From assembly GCA_013285645.1 (NCBI GenBank), contig JABDHJ010000001.1, forward strand, positions 192,537 to 256,536: 64,000 nt of DNA, read 5' to 3'. A program made the position numbers and the translations under genes. Under the pieces are notes generated by a model that had not been told where the DNA came from, did not search any database, and saw only the letters and a program-made list of their open reading frames with translations. Shown here piece by piece: positions 34,356 to 41,672 of the stretch (within the stretch, counting starts at the first letter, position 1; every line of letters starts with the position of its first letter). Origin of the DNA: Verrucomicrobiota bacterium (lineage in GTDB: Bacteria; Verrucomicrobiota; Verrucomicrobiia; Methylacidiphilales; UBA1321).

Positions 34356-35285
34356 TTATTTTGAGAGATTTAAAACGTCCGATTCTTTCGGCTTTATGCA
34401 ACTGGCATAGGTACCAAACAAGGCTTTGTTTGATTGATCAAATGTTGATCTAATTTTGGACTTCATGGGCAGTTCGCCCATTCGATCGTCACGGTAAAAC
34501 AAGCCAAGAAAAGAGTTTACCAGCCACCTCAGTTGAATTAATAAAAAATTCGTTAGATATCCGACTTCTTTATCATGCGGGAGAAGTGCGTTCAACTCTC
34601 GAATCATTTCCGCTCTTTGGGGCGTAAGAGATTTGTTGGTTCTTAAGACTTTCTTATACCTTGAGGTATCATGCACTCCCAGAAGGCGCGCGAAATCATC
34701 GCAGATATCATTATTTACCATTTTGCTATAATCCCTGACTACGATGCTTTCTTTTCCAAAAACGCACGCCCAAGGCTCCAATAATTTGTAATAGTTAAGA
34801 TAGCCATTGTCGATATGTACGGGATCGTCTGTTAATTTCTCCCTCCTGCCATTAATGATGGCTGTGCTGTATGACGCGTAATAGAGCTCGTACTGCTCTC
34901 TCATGTAAAAAATGATGTACACATCAAACGCATCCAATGCGTCTCTAAGTTTTTCTATATGATCACGCGATGTCAGCCTTGATGAAAAATGTTCGGACGA
35001 AAGTATGACGTTTCTTTCCTCATTTGATAAATCCTTCTTAAATCGAGATAACATGTCTTGATTGGGTACATGTTCTGAAGGAAATACAAAATCTGGCGGT
35101 TCATGAAAAAAACTCGCTACGATTGGAGAATGGGCATTTCTGTGCTCTGAGTAATAGAGCTTATTCTCAGTAAAATAGGTAAAACCCGCTCTATTGAGTT
35201 GCTCACTATTGTTCGCCAGGAATTGCCGCAAGCTTGAGGTACCGGTTTTCTCAGATCCAATATGCAAATACAAAGTGCGTTCCAC
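34356..35285 (-). CDS. sulfotransferase-like P-loop protein
   Basis: LYLHIGSEKTGTSSLRQFLANN (5'-PSB-like loop), YIIFYMREQYELYYASYSTAI (3'-PB-like); visibly AT-richer than neighbours. Confidence 0.75.
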   Translation of the reverse strand: MERTLYLHIGSEKTGTSSLRQFLANNSEQLNRAGFTYFTENKLYYSEHRNAHSPIVASFFHEPPDFVFPSEHVPNQDMLSRFKKDLSNEERNVILSSEHFSSRLTSRDHIEKLRDALDAFDVYIIFYMREQYELYYASYSTAIINGRREKLTDDPVHIDNGYLNYYKLLEPWACVFGKESIVVRDYSKMVNNDICDDFARLLGVHDTSRYKKVLRTNKSLTPQRAEMIRELNALLPHDKEVGYLTNFLLIQLRWLVNSFLGLFYRDDRMGELPMKSKIRSTFDQSNKALFGTYASCIKPKESDVLNLSK

Positions 35286-35496: not shown

Positions 35497-35700
35497 TCAC
35501 TGACTGCTTTGCGCCGTATCCAGAATATTGGCCAGGCCGCTGAAGATAATGGCGATCTGGGTATCTAGCAGCCCGTAAACCGCGATGGCCACAATGGAAA
35601 GAACGACCATGATCAGCGAGTATTCCACCAGCGTCTGGCCTCTTTGCCGGGATCGGGACGCGCGCATCCGTGCGAATAGAGGTTGCATCAGGGCTTTCAT
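35497..35700 (-). CDS. Flp-type pilin subunit
   Basis: RSRQRGQTLVEYSLIMVVLSIVAIAVYGLL: G|xxxxEY prepilin signature plus hydrophobic helix. Confidence 0.85.
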   Translation of the reverse strand: MKALMQPLFARMRASRSRQRGQTLVEYSLIMVVLSIVAIAVYGLLDTQIAIIFSGLANILDTAQSSQ

Positions 35701-35818
35701 GGTAAAACACGGAAAACTAAAAGCGAAAGAGAAAAAGGAAATGAGGCGGGAACCGATGAGAAATCGGAAAGAAATTTGAGAGAATGGAACTTCTCAAATC
35801 TCTGAGCCAACATAAGAG

Positions 35819-36022
35819 TTAGTGGCTGCTTCCGGCGTACGACAACTGGCTGCTGATCGTCGTGAAGACACCCTTGACCTGGTTGCCCAAGGCAATCAGG
35901 ACCGAGATGGCGACCACGGAAATGAAGGCGAGAATCAAGGCGTACTCCACCAGAGTTTGGCCCTTCTTGCTCTTCATACGGCGCAGCGCAACTTTGGCGC
36001 TAGTAATAATTTTGTTGATCAT
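35819..36022 (-). CDS. Flp-type pilin subunit
   Basis: MINKIITSAKVALRRMKSKKGQTLVEYALILAFISVVAISVLIALGNQVKGVF; start at ATG 36022 with strong Shine-Dalgarno (gaggaggtgaaaaaac on the minus strand). Confidence 0.9.
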   Translation of the reverse strand: MINKIITSAKVALRRMKSKKGQTLVEYALILAFISVVAISVLIALGNQVKGVFTTISSQLSYAGSSH

Positions 36023-36338
36023 TGTTTTTTCACCTCCTCTCAATAAAAAAAGTGTATCGAAATCTTTAATTTGCCTGCTTCTCCTGCTGGGCAATTTGTC
36101 TACCAGTGATCATTTCACATGCCAACTGAAAAAACCAGCATCAAATCATTCTTCGACATGAACAATACCCTAGTAAAATCTGTAGTAACCTATTTTCTTG
36201 TAGCCACTTGTAACTATTAGCCAAAAATGAAAATTAAAGAACTCAATCGGAGATGGCTACCAAAAAAGTGTAACTGAAAGACCCAGATGTCTTGAATATG
36301 GACGTGCGGGACCTTTTTGCCGGGCCAGCCCTGTTCCT

Positions 36339-36809
36339 TTAGGTAATTGCTGCCGTATCGTTCATGAAATCGCCATCCAACAAAAGCGGTCCAGCTGCCG
36401 CTTCTTTTTCACGGGCAATATGCAAAAGTTCATTGAGCGAGACGGTTACCTGCTGGGAATAAAACCGGACCAATCCGATATTGGTCTTCTCCCCAAAGAT
36501 GGTGACCAGGAGGCATTCGTGATGAAGCGCGCTCATCAGGATGTGTTGCCCATGTCCCTCGTGATAGAGCGCACTGAATTCAGATTCCCCAAGACGCTTG
36601 GCCAATTCGTGCGTGGCGGCAAAGGAACCGGCGGCGAGAGCCGAAAGAATGCTCAGGTCGAGCGCTCCGGTTTCGCCCTTTTGGGCAAAGAGATTGCCGC
36701 CCTTGTCGACCAAGGCGGACCATTGCGCTTCCGACTTGGCGAGAAAATCGCCCAGGCGCTGTTCGATGGCCATCTGATCTTCGGCCGTGAGCATTCCAAT
36801 TCCAGTCAT
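36339..36809 (-). CDS. roadblock/LC7-domain protein (MglB-like)
   Basis: WSALVDKGGNLFAQKGETGALDLSILSALAAGSFAATHELAKRLGESEFSALYHEGHGQHILMSALHHECLLVTIFGEKTNIGLVRFYSQQ; adjacent to MglA-type GTPase. Confidence 0.82.
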   Translation of the reverse strand: MTGIGMLTAEDQMAIEQRLGDFLAKSEAQWSALVDKGGNLFAQKGETGALDLSILSALAAGSFAATHELAKRLGESEFSALYHEGHGQHILMSALHHECLLVTIFGEKTNIGLVRFYSQQVTVSLNELLHIAREKEAAAGPLLLDGDFMNDTAAIT

Positions 36810-36822
36810 ACGTAGTTCCTAT

Positions 36823-37512
36823 TCAGGCTGCAGCGCTGCCCGGCGCAACCTGGGATTCTTCCGCAGGCGGGGGTACGGTGACAGCAGCATTGGGTTGGGC
36901 CAAGCCCGTGACATTGGCATTGGGGGTCTTCGAGTATTTGGCCAGGAGAAGCCGCGCGGCCGCGTTCAACGTTTCCAGTACGCCGGAACCCGTCGAAGCC
37001 ACGGCTTCGAAAGCGAGCGTGCGGTTGGCCCGGTTGTTGAAGGTAAATTCGAGATAGTTGACCGGGGCGGCATTGGGAATGTCCCGCTTATTGTACTGCA
37101 ACACGTAGGGAATCTGCACCAGGCTCAAGTGATTCTCGATCAGGTTTTCCTGGAGATTGGCGAATGACTCCACGTTGTCTGCCATCTTTTCCCAATGCGA
37201 ATCGACGCAAAAGATGATGCCGTCCACTCCCTTGAGCACCAACTGCCGCGTCGTGTTATAAATGGCCTGTCCGGGAACCGTGTAGAGTTGAAACCTCGTC
37301 GTGAAGCCCGGCAGCGTTTTCGTATTCAGCGACAAAAAGTCGAAGAAAAGCGTGCGGTCGGCGTCGGTGGCCAACGAAACCAGCTCGCCTTTTTGCGCGT
37401 GGGTGATCTGTTTATGCAGCGTAACCAGATTGGTCGTCTTGCCGCAAAGAGCGGCGCCGTAATAGACGATCTTCAGCTGAATTTCGCGGCTGGAGTAATT
37501 AATGAAAGCCAT
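36823..37512 (-). CDS. MglA-type small GTPase
   Basis: INYSSREIQLKIVYYGAALCGKTTNLVTLH (P-loop), SLATDADRTLFFDFLSL, YVLQYNKRDIPNA (NKxD-like). Confidence 0.93.
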   Translation of the reverse strand: MAFINYSSREIQLKIVYYGAALCGKTTNLVTLHKQITHAQKGELVSLATDADRTLFFDFLSLNTKTLPGFTTRFQLYTVPGQAIYNTTRQLVLKGVDGIIFCVDSHWEKMADNVESFANLQENLIENHLSLVQIPYVLQYNKRDIPNAAPVNYLEFTFNNRANRTLAFEAVASTGSGVLETLNAAARLLLAKYSKTPNANVTGLAQPNAAVTVPPPAEESQVAPGSAAA

Positions 37513-37530
37513 ACGTGCAATCTCGGCTAA

Positions 37531-40014
37531 CTATTCTTTCCGCATGCTCAAGGCAGCCAGGACAAAGCGGGCGACCTTAAGATGCCGTTCAGGCATTTGA
37601 GGCAACCTGCAAAGGATAATGAGGTAAAGGTCATTGTCGCGGAAAATGTGATAGCTCGTTCCCGCAGTCGGAATGATCAGGTCGTTGGTTTCCTTGCCCG
37701 CGATTTCCGAGAACGACTTGTTCAGCGACTCGAACATCCGCGGCACAAAGGCAACCAGCGCTGCTTTGTCCAGGCCTTTGGGAGTATGCCCCACCAGGGA
37801 CAGTCCGCTGCCTTGGCTCAAGACGCAACCGGTGACATCCGGCCAGCAGCATATACGATCCGTGACTTCCTTGAGGGAAGGCCGTTGATCCGCCGGAAAG
37901 CCGAGAAGCTCGTTGATCGTGAGCGGTATCCGGTTGGCAGGCGGAGTTTCCCCAGTGAGGTTCGTATAAGCGTCTTTTGTGATTCCGGGCACATCCAATA
38001 GGTCTTCGATCCTTTGAAACGACCCAATCGCCTTCCGATGCTTAATGATCGATTCAGCCAGTTCCCGGTTGCAGCCGGGTATCTGGAGCAACTCCTCGAC
38101 TGTGCAGGTATTGAGATTGAACGCTCCGGATTCTTCAGGAGTCGGCTCCTTTTCGGCGGTAGTAGGCAAGGGCTTCGTTAGCACCGCCTCAGGATTAACA
38201 ATCGATGTGGGTGCCTGCACAGCCGGAGTTGGCGGCGGCGTATAGGCAACCGGCGCCGGAGCAGCAACCGGAGTGGGCACTGCCACGGGAATGGAACGCA
38301 CAGGTGCGGTAGCCACAGGCGCGGGTGCGATAGGCAGCGGCGCGGGGGTGAATACCGGCGCAGGCGGCTGGATCAGCGGCGGCGGTGTGAAGGCCACAGG
38401 CGCGGGCGTCTCGATGGGAGCAGGCTCCTCCACCGGTTCCGGCGGCGTATAGGCAACGGGTTCGGGCTCAGGTTCAGGTTCCGGAGCGGCGACGGGAATG
38501 GGCAGGGTCTCCTCCTGTACTGGGGGCGTATAGGCCTCGGGCTCGGGATTGGCGATGGGAGCCGTCTCAGCCGTGGCGAGCAGATCGGTGGAGGCGCTTT
38601 CCGGTTCTTCGCTTTCACCCATTTGCGCCATGGCCAATGCAGCCAAGCGCTGGAGATCGTCGGCAGCCGCATCAGGCACGCCCGGAGCGGGTTGCTCGAC
38701 GGGAGACGTTGCCGCAAGCTCTTCAGGAACTGGAGCCTCAACCGGGGCTGGAGGGGCCTCAGCCACCATGGGAGCGGGCGTAGGTCTAGGAGCAGGTTGT
38801 GGAGGAGCCTCAGGCTGCACCGGAGGCATCTGCGGTTTCGGCAAAGACTGGGTCAGGCGAGGCACCGGCGGAATGGGAGCGGGCGGCATTGAGACCATCG
38901 AGCGCGGGGTCGAAGCCATCGGAATCGGAGCCGTCGGCTGGGGCAACATCGGTGCCTGCATCTGAGACGTGACCGCCGCCTGGGGCCGGGCCGGAATCGC
39001 GGCAGTCGCCCGCGTCGGAGCCGGAAGTGTCCCTGAAGGAGAAATCGTGCGTGCGCTGACACTCGGAGACGCCGGGGCGACCGATCCCGGCAAACGTGAG
39101 GGTGGCTTGGGAGGAGGCGGAAGTTGACCGCTGGCCGAGACCGAGGATACGATTCCCGGAGCAGTCGGCCGCTGTGGTGGCGCAATCGTCTTCGGCGCGG
39201 CCGTGGGAACAAATGCCTCGCTCTGCGGAACCTGGCTTTCCTCGATGATATTATTCTGAGTCGTTTGACGACGCGCGGCTTCCGCTTGTTCGCGCAAAAT
39301 CTCCTCCGTGAAGGGATCCGCCATGTTGATCACGGAAGCATCGACCCCTTTTTGATCGGGACGCAAGGCAAGCAGATCAGGCGGGATGCGCATGACCACA
39401 TCCATCAGCGGTAAATTGACGACCGTCGGCAGATAGTTGGTAATGGAAGCCGTGGGCTGGAGGTAGCCGGGCGGAAAATGAGGAACCAGGTCCGCCAGCG
39501 TCATCTCCACCTTGCCGGAAGGGAGTTGACTTAAAATCATGTTCATCGGCAGGCCGATTTCCGTGGCCGCAGTACCGGCGGCCTCAAATTGGGCAATGTC
39601 AGCCGCCAAGACTTCCGGGGGAAGGCAGCGCAGAATCATTCCCACCGGCAGGTTGATCCGTCCCGCCGGGGCAGCTGCCGCAGGAATAGGAAGAGATTTA
39701 GTGCTGCTAGTCGGTTTGCCCAAGCCGCCGGGCAGAACAATGCGCTGGGTTGAGCGCGTCGATTGCACGACCCCGGGGCGGGTCGGTTTGAGGCCCGAAG
39801 CGGTGCGCGGCATGACCATCGGCTGTGTAGTCGCAGCACCGGAAGTCATCCCCGATGTGGGAATCAAACCGGAAGGCTGGGGAGGCTTGACGGTGGGGAT
39901 GTTCGCCACGCCCGGAGGGGTTTGAATCTTCGGCGGAGTCGGCGGCGCTTTTGCAACAGGGGCAGTAGCTTCCGTGGGGTTTTTATCTTTTTTACCGAAG
40001 AAAGAGAATGCCAT
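37531..40014 (-). CDS. large Pro-rich protein with N-terminal repeat region, helix-hairpin-helix domain and C-terminal roadblock-like domain
   Basis: 827 aa: three I/V-x-LP...LP repeats (INLPVGMILRCLPPEVL, IGLPMNMILSQLPSGKV, VNLPLMDVVMRIPPDLL), long P/A/V-rich region, FNLNTCTVEELLQIPGCNRELAESIIKHRKAIGSFQRIEDLLDVPGI (HhH), C-terminal DRICCWPDVTGCVLSQGSGLSLVGHTPKGLD...DLYLIILCRLPQ. Confidence 0.8.
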   Translation of the reverse strand: MAFSFFGKKDKNPTEATAPVAKAPPTPPKIQTPPGVANIPTVKPPQPSGLIPTSGMTSGAATTQPMVMPRTASGLKPTRPGVVQSTRSTQRIVLPGGLGKPTSSTKSLPIPAAAAPAGRINLPVGMILRCLPPEVLAADIAQFEAAGTAATEIGLPMNMILSQLPSGKVEMTLADLVPHFPPGYLQPTASITNYLPTVVNLPLMDVVMRIPPDLLALRPDQKGVDASVINMADPFTEEILREQAEAARRQTTQNNIIEESQVPQSEAFVPTAAPKTIAPPQRPTAPGIVSSVSASGQLPPPPKPPSRLPGSVAPASPSVSARTISPSGTLPAPTRATAAIPARPQAAVTSQMQAPMLPQPTAPIPMASTPRSMVSMPPAPIPPVPRLTQSLPKPQMPPVQPEAPPQPAPRPTPAPMVAEAPPAPVEAPVPEELAATSPVEQPAPGVPDAAADDLQRLAALAMAQMGESEEPESASTDLLATAETAPIANPEPEAYTPPVQEETLPIPVAAPEPEPEPEPVAYTPPEPVEEPAPIETPAPVAFTPPPLIQPPAPVFTPAPLPIAPAPVATAPVRSIPVAVPTPVAAPAPVAYTPPPTPAVQAPTSIVNPEAVLTKPLPTTAEKEPTPEESGAFNLNTCTVEELLQIPGCNRELAESIIKHRKAIGSFQRIEDLLDVPGITKDAYTNLTGETPPANRIPLTINELLGFPADQRPSLKEVTDRICCWPDVTGCVLSQGSGLSLVGHTPKGLDKAALVAFVPRMFESLNKSFSEIAGKETNDLIIPTAGTSYHIFRDNDLYLIILCRLPQMPERHLKVARFVLAALSMRKE

Positions 40015-40099
40015 ATGCCGGGTATTTTCGTGGAAAGCTTGTCAAGCCGGTTTGATGGTGCACTATTATCTTTCAGTTGCAACAGCAAATATCGTCGCG

Positions 40100-41113
40100 A
40101 TGAGTTATCCGAATAGCACTCCGTTTTCTGAATCAGACCTACCGGTTTCGTCCGGTTTTAATACCCAATCCCAGATGGGATTGGCCGAAGTCCTGCAGAT
40201 GTGCTGCCTGAGCCACCGCAGCGGCCAGATCACCTTCCGGTCCGGCGAATCCCACGGATTTGTCTTCATCCAGCAGGGCAACGTCCTCCACGCCATGTGC
40301 GGTCCCATCGAGGGAGCGGAAGCCATCTTCACCATGCTCACCTGGCCCGGAGGCGGATTCTCGCTAAATGAAGATATTTTACCTCATAAGAAAACGGTGA
40401 CATTGACCTGGGAGCAACTACTCTTTGAAGGTGCCCGCCGCGCGGATGAAGGTATCAGTACGCCTTCCGGCGCTCCGGTTGTCACCGCCGAACCAGTTGT
40501 TAGTACGCGTGCCCACGAGAGCCAGCCGAAACTAATCATAACCCGTCCCGACCTCCCTCAGGCCGCTTACGAGTTGGTCCAGGAATACACCCATTTAGGA
40601 CGGGCTGCGGGCAACGAGATCTCCCTCCCCTACCCCTCCATTTCCGGTCGCCATTGCATCTTCATCCTCAGCGGTCCGGATGTTGTCGTGCGCGATCTCA
40701 ACTCTTCCAACGGCACCCTGGTCAACGACGAGACCATCAGCGAACAGGTCCTGCGACCCGGCGATATCATCCGAGTCGGAGTCGTCGAGATCAAATTTGA
40801 AGCTGGCATGAAGCGCCCCAAATTACGCACCAACGCTCCGGCTCAAAGAACTGCGGAGTCTCTCAAGGAAGTGCCGTTCAATCCGCTGATCTCCCACTCG
40901 ACAGTCAAGCTACCCGGCGCAAGAAGCGCGGACGGTGCCGCTCCCAAAGCCAAGAACGACAGCGCTTACGTCAAAGGCGTGTCCGCCATCAACTACAGCG
41001 ATCTCGCCAAGCCCGAAGTTAACGAGAAAAAAGCCCCTTGGATGATCATCTTCATCGTCGTAGTGTTAGTCCTCGGTGGAGCCGCCTGTTACTTCTTCCT
41101 CCTCCGGCATTAG
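40100..41113 (+). CDS. DUF4388-like + FHA domain protein with C-terminal transmembrane anchor
   Basis: MGLAEVLQMCCLSHRSGQITFRSGESHGFVFIQQGNVLHAMCGPIEGAEAIFTMLTWPGGGFSLNE; FHA: HLGRAAGNEISLPYPSISGRHCIFILSGPDVVVRDLNSSNGTLVND; C-term APWMIIFIVVVLVLGGAACYFFLLRH. Confidence 0.88.
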   Translation: MSYPNSTPFSESDLPVSSGFNTQSQMGLAEVLQMCCLSHRSGQITFRSGESHGFVFIQQGNVLHAMCGPIEGAEAIFTMLTWPGGGFSLNEDILPHKKTVTLTWEQLLFEGARRADEGISTPSGAPVVTAEPVVSTRAHESQPKLIITRPDLPQAAYELVQEYTHLGRAAGNEISLPYPSISGRHCIFILSGPDVVVRDLNSSNGTLVNDETISEQVLRPGDIIRVGVVEIKFEAGMKRPKLRTNAPAQRTAESLKEVPFNPLISHSTVKLPGARSADGAAPKAKNDSAYVKGVSAINYSDLAKPEVNEKKAPWMIIFIVVVLVLGGAACYFFLLRH

Positions 41114-41249: not shown

Positions 41250-41672
41250 TTATTTTAAGCGCAACCTCAACCGCCCAAGCATGCCCTTCCTACCGGAAGA
41301 CCCGCGTAAAATCAGAAGTCGGAATCCAACCCAAATCCAACAAAGTCGGCGGACTCGAAAAGCGTCCCACATAAAACCGCCGTGCTTTTCAAAGTAAGTT
41401 TCCTCGGACGCCGAATAAAGGTAATCAATGGCCTCTCCAAGACACTCCCCTATATCGATTTCAACCCCACATTCCTCCCTGACTTCCCTCGCTAGGGTAA
41501 CTTGTTCCGTCTCGCCCGGTTCGCATCCACCGCCAGGGAGAAAGTACGTCTCCCCGTCACGAATAGCAGCAACCCCGCGCTCACCATCCAAAACTACAAC
41601 ATAAACGCCACGTCGAATGACGTAGTCGATGCCAGCCTGCTTTTCACCAAATGTCGGAATTGTGGAAGGCAT
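41250..41672 (-). CDS. NUDIX hydrolase (possible C-terminal frameshift)
   Basis: Nudix box GGGCEPGETEQVTLAREVREECGVEI. Confidence 0.75.
   Translation of the reverse strand: MPSTIPTFGEKQAGIDYVIRRGVYVVVLDGERGVAAIRDGETYFLPGGGCEPGETEQVTLAREVREECGVEIDIGECLGEAIDYLYSASEETYFEKHGGFMWDAFRVRRLCWIWVGFRLLILRGSSGRKGMLGRLRLRLK

Follow-up and report, generated by a model that had tools for sequence, protein, structure and literature searches.

A Verrucomicrobiota MglA/MglB-type module with a large second roadblock protein and a probable role in type IV pilus extension

The window analysed here is a 64,000-nucleotide stretch from a draft genome (66% complete), assigned to the order Methylacidiphilales by the names of its nearest relatives, the Candidatus Methylacidiphilales genomes SRB-18, SRB-291, and NGEE_A_bin15. 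Positions 35497-41113 encode an MglA-type guanosine triphosphatase (GTPase), an MglB-like protein, and a large protein, named LP-Rob here, in which an N-terminal LP domain is joined to a C-terminal roadblock domain. Judged from sequence and gene context, this locus is probably the Methylacidiphilales version of a phylum-wide Verrucomicrobiota MglA/MglB module that controls type IV pilus extension. The original prediction had described a candidate polarity or surface-signaling module; its observation of the locus is confirmed, and its interpretation is partly supported. All six open reading frames (ORFs) that it claimed are present where it placed them. On the minus strand, in transcription order, LP-Rob (37531-40014) is followed after 18 bases by mglA (36823-37512) and after 13 bases by mglB (36339-36809), and this close spacing on one strand gives the three genes an operon-like shape. 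Two Flp-type pilin genes start about 320 bases beyond mglB. A gene for a protein with DUF4388, which we take to be the PATAN domain, and FHA (40100-41113, plus strand) diverges from LP-Rob across a gap of 85 bases.

The GTPase (229 amino acids) is a genuine MglA. Its best PDB matches are the MglA proteins of Myxococcus xanthus and Thermus thermophilus (E 6e-63 to 4e-57), and the alignment over residues 1-195 spans the whole domain. The Arg53 finger, Thr78, and the catalytic Gln82 are invariant among ten members of the order. Residue 21, at the position of Ras Gly12, is Ala in all module MglAs of Methylacidiphilales and in nearly all Verrucomicrobiota MglAs seen, while Gly is kept in some Lentisphaerota and one Verrucomicrobiales sequence. 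At the same site, the G21V change in Thermus MglA is reported to lower the turnover number (kcat) seven-fold (PMC3000849). The almost phylum-wide Ala raises a specific biochemical question about these MglAs. In one congener (genome G007, L033:6767-7453, from the same metagenome-assembled genome as L097), MglA carries Leu at the Gln82 position (VPGL for VPGQ), which could be real or a draft error. The Gln82-to-Leu change makes M. xanthus MglA insensitive to MglB (PMC2907295).

The mglB gene is the next gene after mglA, and the two are coupled in the usage of Wuichet (2014), in which mglB lies within four genes. The predicted roadblock protein (156 amino acids) is MglB-like, with a single Robl_LC7 domain (E 3.5e-8, 33.5 bits against a cut-off of 23) and a match to PDB MglB (E 7e-16). 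It falls under the cut-off of the NCBIfam MglB equivalog NF052242, apparently a Thermus-type model (E 3.5e-17, 63 bits against 200), and is thus called MglB-like and not a member of that equivalog.

LP-Rob has 827 residues, and relatives were found in 21 of 60 near genomes searched. As a single sequence, it misses the Robl_LC7 cut-off (13.2 bits against 23). The roadblock domain predicted at its C-terminus (residues ~714-824; 37543-37875) holds by profile and predicted structure. A 43-sequence profile of this region matches solved roadblocks in the PDB (7f8f, E 5e-8), and 30 of the 43 relatives match Robl_LC7 (E up to 0.1). In an AlphaFold model with a predicted local distance difference test (pLDDT) score of 90, the best Foldseek matches are roadblocks, including MglB and p14/MP1 (probability 1.00). 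In the comparison with hidden Markov models and structures that was set beforehand, both roadblock calls of the locus hold. The helix-hairpin-helix (HhH) call also stands (HHH_3, E 1.1e-15; residues 631-688; 37951-38124). This element is present in the lineage of the window and in some others, and HHH_3 is matched in 19 of 43 relatives; LP and roadblock domains are kept where it is missing. A long Pro-rich linker joins these two domains.

The LP domain (residues ~128-232; 39319-39633) is the conserved N-terminal region of LP-Rob. It comprises about 105 residues with a repeated LPxxxILxxLP pattern in an alignment of 40 relatives. Its AlphaFold model (pLDDT 88.7; predicted template modeling score 0.71) contains four strand-helix units. 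Searches for its identity in Pfam, PDB sequences, PDB folds (best E 9.3), and viral fold models returned no match. A new fold is a possibility and not a stronger claim, because Foldseek can overlook short domains built of repeats and the fold comparison covered PDB and viral models. No description of the LP-Rob family was found in the literature. A search with incomplete journal coverage, which is weak evidence of novelty, returned no paper joining roadblock, helix-hairpin-helix, and MglA, and within the same coverage Wuichet (2014) was the only paper found with Verrucomicrobia, MglA, and PilB or type IV pili.

The set of GTPase, GTPase-activating protein (GAP)-like protein, and large roadblock protein is conserved across the phylum, a distribution wider than the original prediction could know from the window when it proposed a neighborhood search. 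The order DUF4388-FHA/LP-Rob-mglA-mglB-flp recurs in all seven genomes of the same genus (in one, the contig stops within the first flp). The same order minus flp occurs in two sister genera, and further families of Methylacidiphilales keep the first four genes, usually beside nrnA-truB-ribF. Because the order is conserved in the seven congeners and beyond, the arrangement is not due to chance. Eighty Verrucomicrobiota and Lentisphaerota loci from named genomes were found via two MglA peptide patterns, and the sample is therefore biased to MglAs carrying those patterns. Except in a handful of these loci, mglA has LP and/or roadblock matches next to it. Several of the exceptions are contig ends, and neither match was found beside a Kiritimatiellota mglA (L162).

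Co-occurrence was counted in 388 genomes sampled evenly across the phylum, with thresholds of E <= 1e-20 for MglA and E <= 1e-3 for the LP domain. MglA was found in 41 genomes, the LP domain in 34, and both in 33. The LP domain is thus present in 33 of 41 genomes with MglA versus 1 of 347 without it (Fisher 4e-39, with shared ancestry left out of account). Five genomes have the LP match and mglA on different contigs; one of these matches is weak (E 4e-4), and the contigs of such drafts may be neighbors. The MglA tree has three main groups, consisting of Methylacidiphilales, of Lentisphaerota and relatives, and of the rest of Verrucomicrobiota, the last with weak support.

LP-Rob is also kept in loci that lack mglB. 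In a derived clade represented by nine loci, the LP protein is retained with rpoN upstream and exbB/exbD downstream of the module, and no mglB was detected in the locus. In family f3 (L045, L048, and L049), the locus retains LP-Rob and has no mglB, and its GTPase is degenerate in L045 and was not found in L048 and L049. That LP-Rob stays with mglA without mglB in the nine loci of the rpoN clade, and with a degenerate GTPase in one f3 genome, suggests direct contact between LP-Rob and MglA. On a bolder and less likely reading, LP-Rob could therefore be the core partner and not an accessory. In family f3, LP-Rob is followed by a protein of ~915 amino acids of unknown kind.

The link to type IV pili comes from gene context. 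Among loci outside Methylacidiphilales that could be tested, 28 of 40 have pilB, the gene for the type IV pilus extension ATPase, immediately upstream of LP-Rob. This adjacency lends context support to the part of the original prediction that concerned pilus placement in a non-myxobacterial lineage; its Flp/Tad part needs correction. Since the conserved gene set often directly follows pilB, the module probably helps decide where or when pili extend. The pilB-upstream arrangement is found in the third MglA group, in which a TPR-MshEN gene occurs in the same locus. MshEN is a domain that binds cyclic di-GMP (c-di-GMP). The PilB tested also matches the NCBIfam MshE-related c-di-GMP motif, just under the cut-off. 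The source genome has three PilT proteins and, at a contig edge, a PilB/GspE-type C-terminus followed by a PilC-like gene. A GspE-type ATPase on source contig C44 was considered as PilB and rejected because it belongs to a type II secretion cluster (L059) with GspF, GspK, and GspD.

Several observations weigh against a dedicated role in type IV pilus extension. Within Methylacidiphilales, pilB does not adjoin the module, whose pilus neighbors there are Flp pilins. The derived clade described above, which accounts for 8 of the 40 testable loci, lacks mglB in the locus and has rpoN, not pilB, upstream. The counts for co-occurrence of LP and MglA are inflated by shared ancestry. PilT is found in 39 of 39 other MglA-positive genomes tested, but also in 57 of 60 genomes without MglA. 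Its co-occurrence does not discriminate and was set aside as functional evidence; with PilT present almost throughout the phylum, finding it is a necessary condition that carries little information.

The predicted DUF4388-FHA protein contains both domains (PF14332, E 9e-18, 64.9 bits against a cut-off of 25; FHA, E 1e-16) and one C-terminal hydrophobic segment, in agreement with the proposed tail anchor. DUF4388 lies at ~40169-40450, FHA at ~40592-40780, and the transmembrane segment at ~41039-41104. PF14332 also matches in a Synechococcus control. The gene is the divergent neighbor of LP-Rob in Methylacidiphilales, and two deep clades have a DUF4388 protein beside LP-Rob, with FHA in Methylacidiphilales and without it in Lentisphaerota. 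The Lentisphaerota neighbors were considered as FHA proteins and rejected, as Pfam shows DUF4388 and not FHA; one of them has a weak receiver match. Beside LP-Rob, it is the DUF4388 half of the predicted protein that recurs outside Methylacidiphilales; FHA was seen in that order only. In one cluster of pilB and LP-Rob, a single protein (L123:2636-5005) combines receiver-like, DUF4388, kinase-like, and FGE-sulfatase domains. Genomes of the source organism's family (G000-G010) carry 5 to 14 DUF4388 domains each, with ten in the source genome, an expanded and mostly unstudied group. G007 has a further pairing of Flp and DUF4388, with a second Flp-like pilin gene beside a second gene for DUF4388 at a distance of about 4 kb from the module (L033:15191-16289).

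A working mechanism can be proposed on these grounds. MglA would act as the GTP switch, and MglB would be its GAP-like partner, limiting MglA-GTP. LP-Rob would serve as the second roadblock protein, with its C-terminal domain binding MglA or MglB and reading or tuning MglA-GTP. Through the LP domain, on its long flexible linker, LP-Rob might connect the switch to PilB or to its cell pole, bring this domain to the base of the pilus, and promote PilB action at that site. The membrane-anchored DUF4388-FHA protein is a likely input or docking part in Methylacidiphilales. The sequences establish the families, the domain fold, the gene order, the co-occurrence across the phylum, and the neighboring pilB in other clades. 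Direct binding, GAP activity, polar localization, the output, and the pilus that is controlled in the source organism are what we infer from sequence, as are the scaffold and phospho-reader roles named in the original prediction. M. xanthus MglA recruits PilB to the pole by way of SgmX, and the set of proteins co-occurring with SgmX includes two PATAN proteins (PMC11580455). For the PATAN regulator PixE of Synechocystis, an interaction with PilB1 is reported (PMC7690835, citing Jakob 2019). A bolder proposal is conceivable but doubtful: LP-Rob may be the first of a new kind of small-GTPase partner, in which a roadblock platform docks MglA onto PilB through an LP domain with a new fold. If true, GTPase-controlled pilus polarity would have a second lineage in Verrucomicrobiota, with a different wiring.

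The Flp pilins raise the question of whether MglA instead positions a Tad machine that assembles them, for attachment or surface sensing and not for twitching. The first pilin (35819-36022, minus strand) is over the Pfam cut-off (Flp_Fap, E 4e-9). The second (35497-35700, minus strand) is under it (E 1e-3) but resembles the first and is matched by counterparts in the congeners with contigs long enough to include it, so that the call of two pilins is firm for one gene and weaker for the other. The placement of Flp genes after mglB in all seven congeners favors the Tad reading, as does the single TadA-like ATPase in each of seven relatives examined, encoded on another contig; the one such locus that was followed up has CpaE-like and TadB-like neighbors. 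However, pilins do not adjoin the module in sister genera or other families, and the Flp genes, of which genomes of the family have three to seven each at several loci, are scattered over contigs. No tadA, tadB/C, or secretin genes lie beside the flp genes of the window, no TadA-like ATPase was found in the incomplete source genome, and elsewhere the recurrent pilus neighbor is PilB. Control of a Tad machine is thus quite unlikely, and the Flp pilins were rejected as core members. As a genus-level addition, they do not make the Tad link a core feature; rather than defining the module, they may have been added locally, placing Tad pilins under shared expression.

Two further explanations dispense with pilus extension. 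The module could serve general polarity or cell-envelope signaling, with pilB as a common but incidental neighbor. The varying context fits this idea, with nrnA-truB-ribF in Methylacidiphilales and rpoN plus exbB/exbD in another clade, and GTPase/MglB pairs are able to serve other pathways, as in actinobacterial conservons (PMC13343842). Yet the frequent pilB adjacency, together with the TPR-MshEN and recurrent DUF4388 partners, indicates pilus control, which makes general signaling a rather unlikely account. Alternatively, LP-Rob could be a ComEA-like DNA-uptake protein with the HhH as its working part, an idea backed by HhH matches to ComEA structures and to the ComEA repeat model (E 4e-9, under the cut-off). 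This role in competence is highly improbable, given that LP and roadblock persist in relatives of which just a minority match HHH_3, that inspection of the N-terminus of LP-Rob shows no apparent export signal, and that LP-Rob tracks MglA.

The proposed type IV pilus control by the Verrucomicrobiota module has its closest parallel in the MglA/MglB system of M. xanthus, which includes MglC, RomY, and RomR/RomX. Both have MglA and MglB homologs and a second roadblock protein (compare MglC). In M. xanthus the output is demonstrated to reach the type IV pilus extension motor (PMC11580455), as is proposed for the module here. Unlike MglC or RomY, LP-Rob has about 830 residues and an LP domain. The Verrucomicrobiota module further differs in its frequent location in a pilB cluster, its DUF4388 neighbors, and Ala at MglA position 21. 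The actinobacterial conservons (CvnA-D) likewise encode a small GTPase together with an MglB-type roadblock protein (PMC13343842). However, the conservon core has a histidine kinase-like protein and CvnC, neither of which is seen at the locus of the window. To our knowledge, no conservon contains an LP-Rob-like protein. The cyanobacterial PATAN regulators PixE, PixG, and LsiR share DUF4388 with the window protein, but their PATAN is fused to a receiver and not to FHA and a membrane anchor. Ragulator and other eukaryotic and archaeal roadblock platforms share the roadblock fold and a small-GTPase partner, a likeness by fold alone. Bacterial GTPase-based polarity is known mainly from Myxococcus, and the Verrucomicrobiota module is a separate system in which to study it. 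It offers a way to ask how a Ras-like switch licenses a pilus motor, and it supplies unannotated proteins of one family with a function that can be tested.

Two other ORFs flank the locus. A nudix-like ORF of 140 amino acids (41250-41672) lies between the DUF4388-FHA gene and nrnA and was undetected in the loci of relatives. On the other side, an ORF of 309 amino acids with no Pfam match (34356-35285), seen in the window only, separates the pilins from rpmE. In congeners whose contig covers this region, rpmE directly follows the second pilin.

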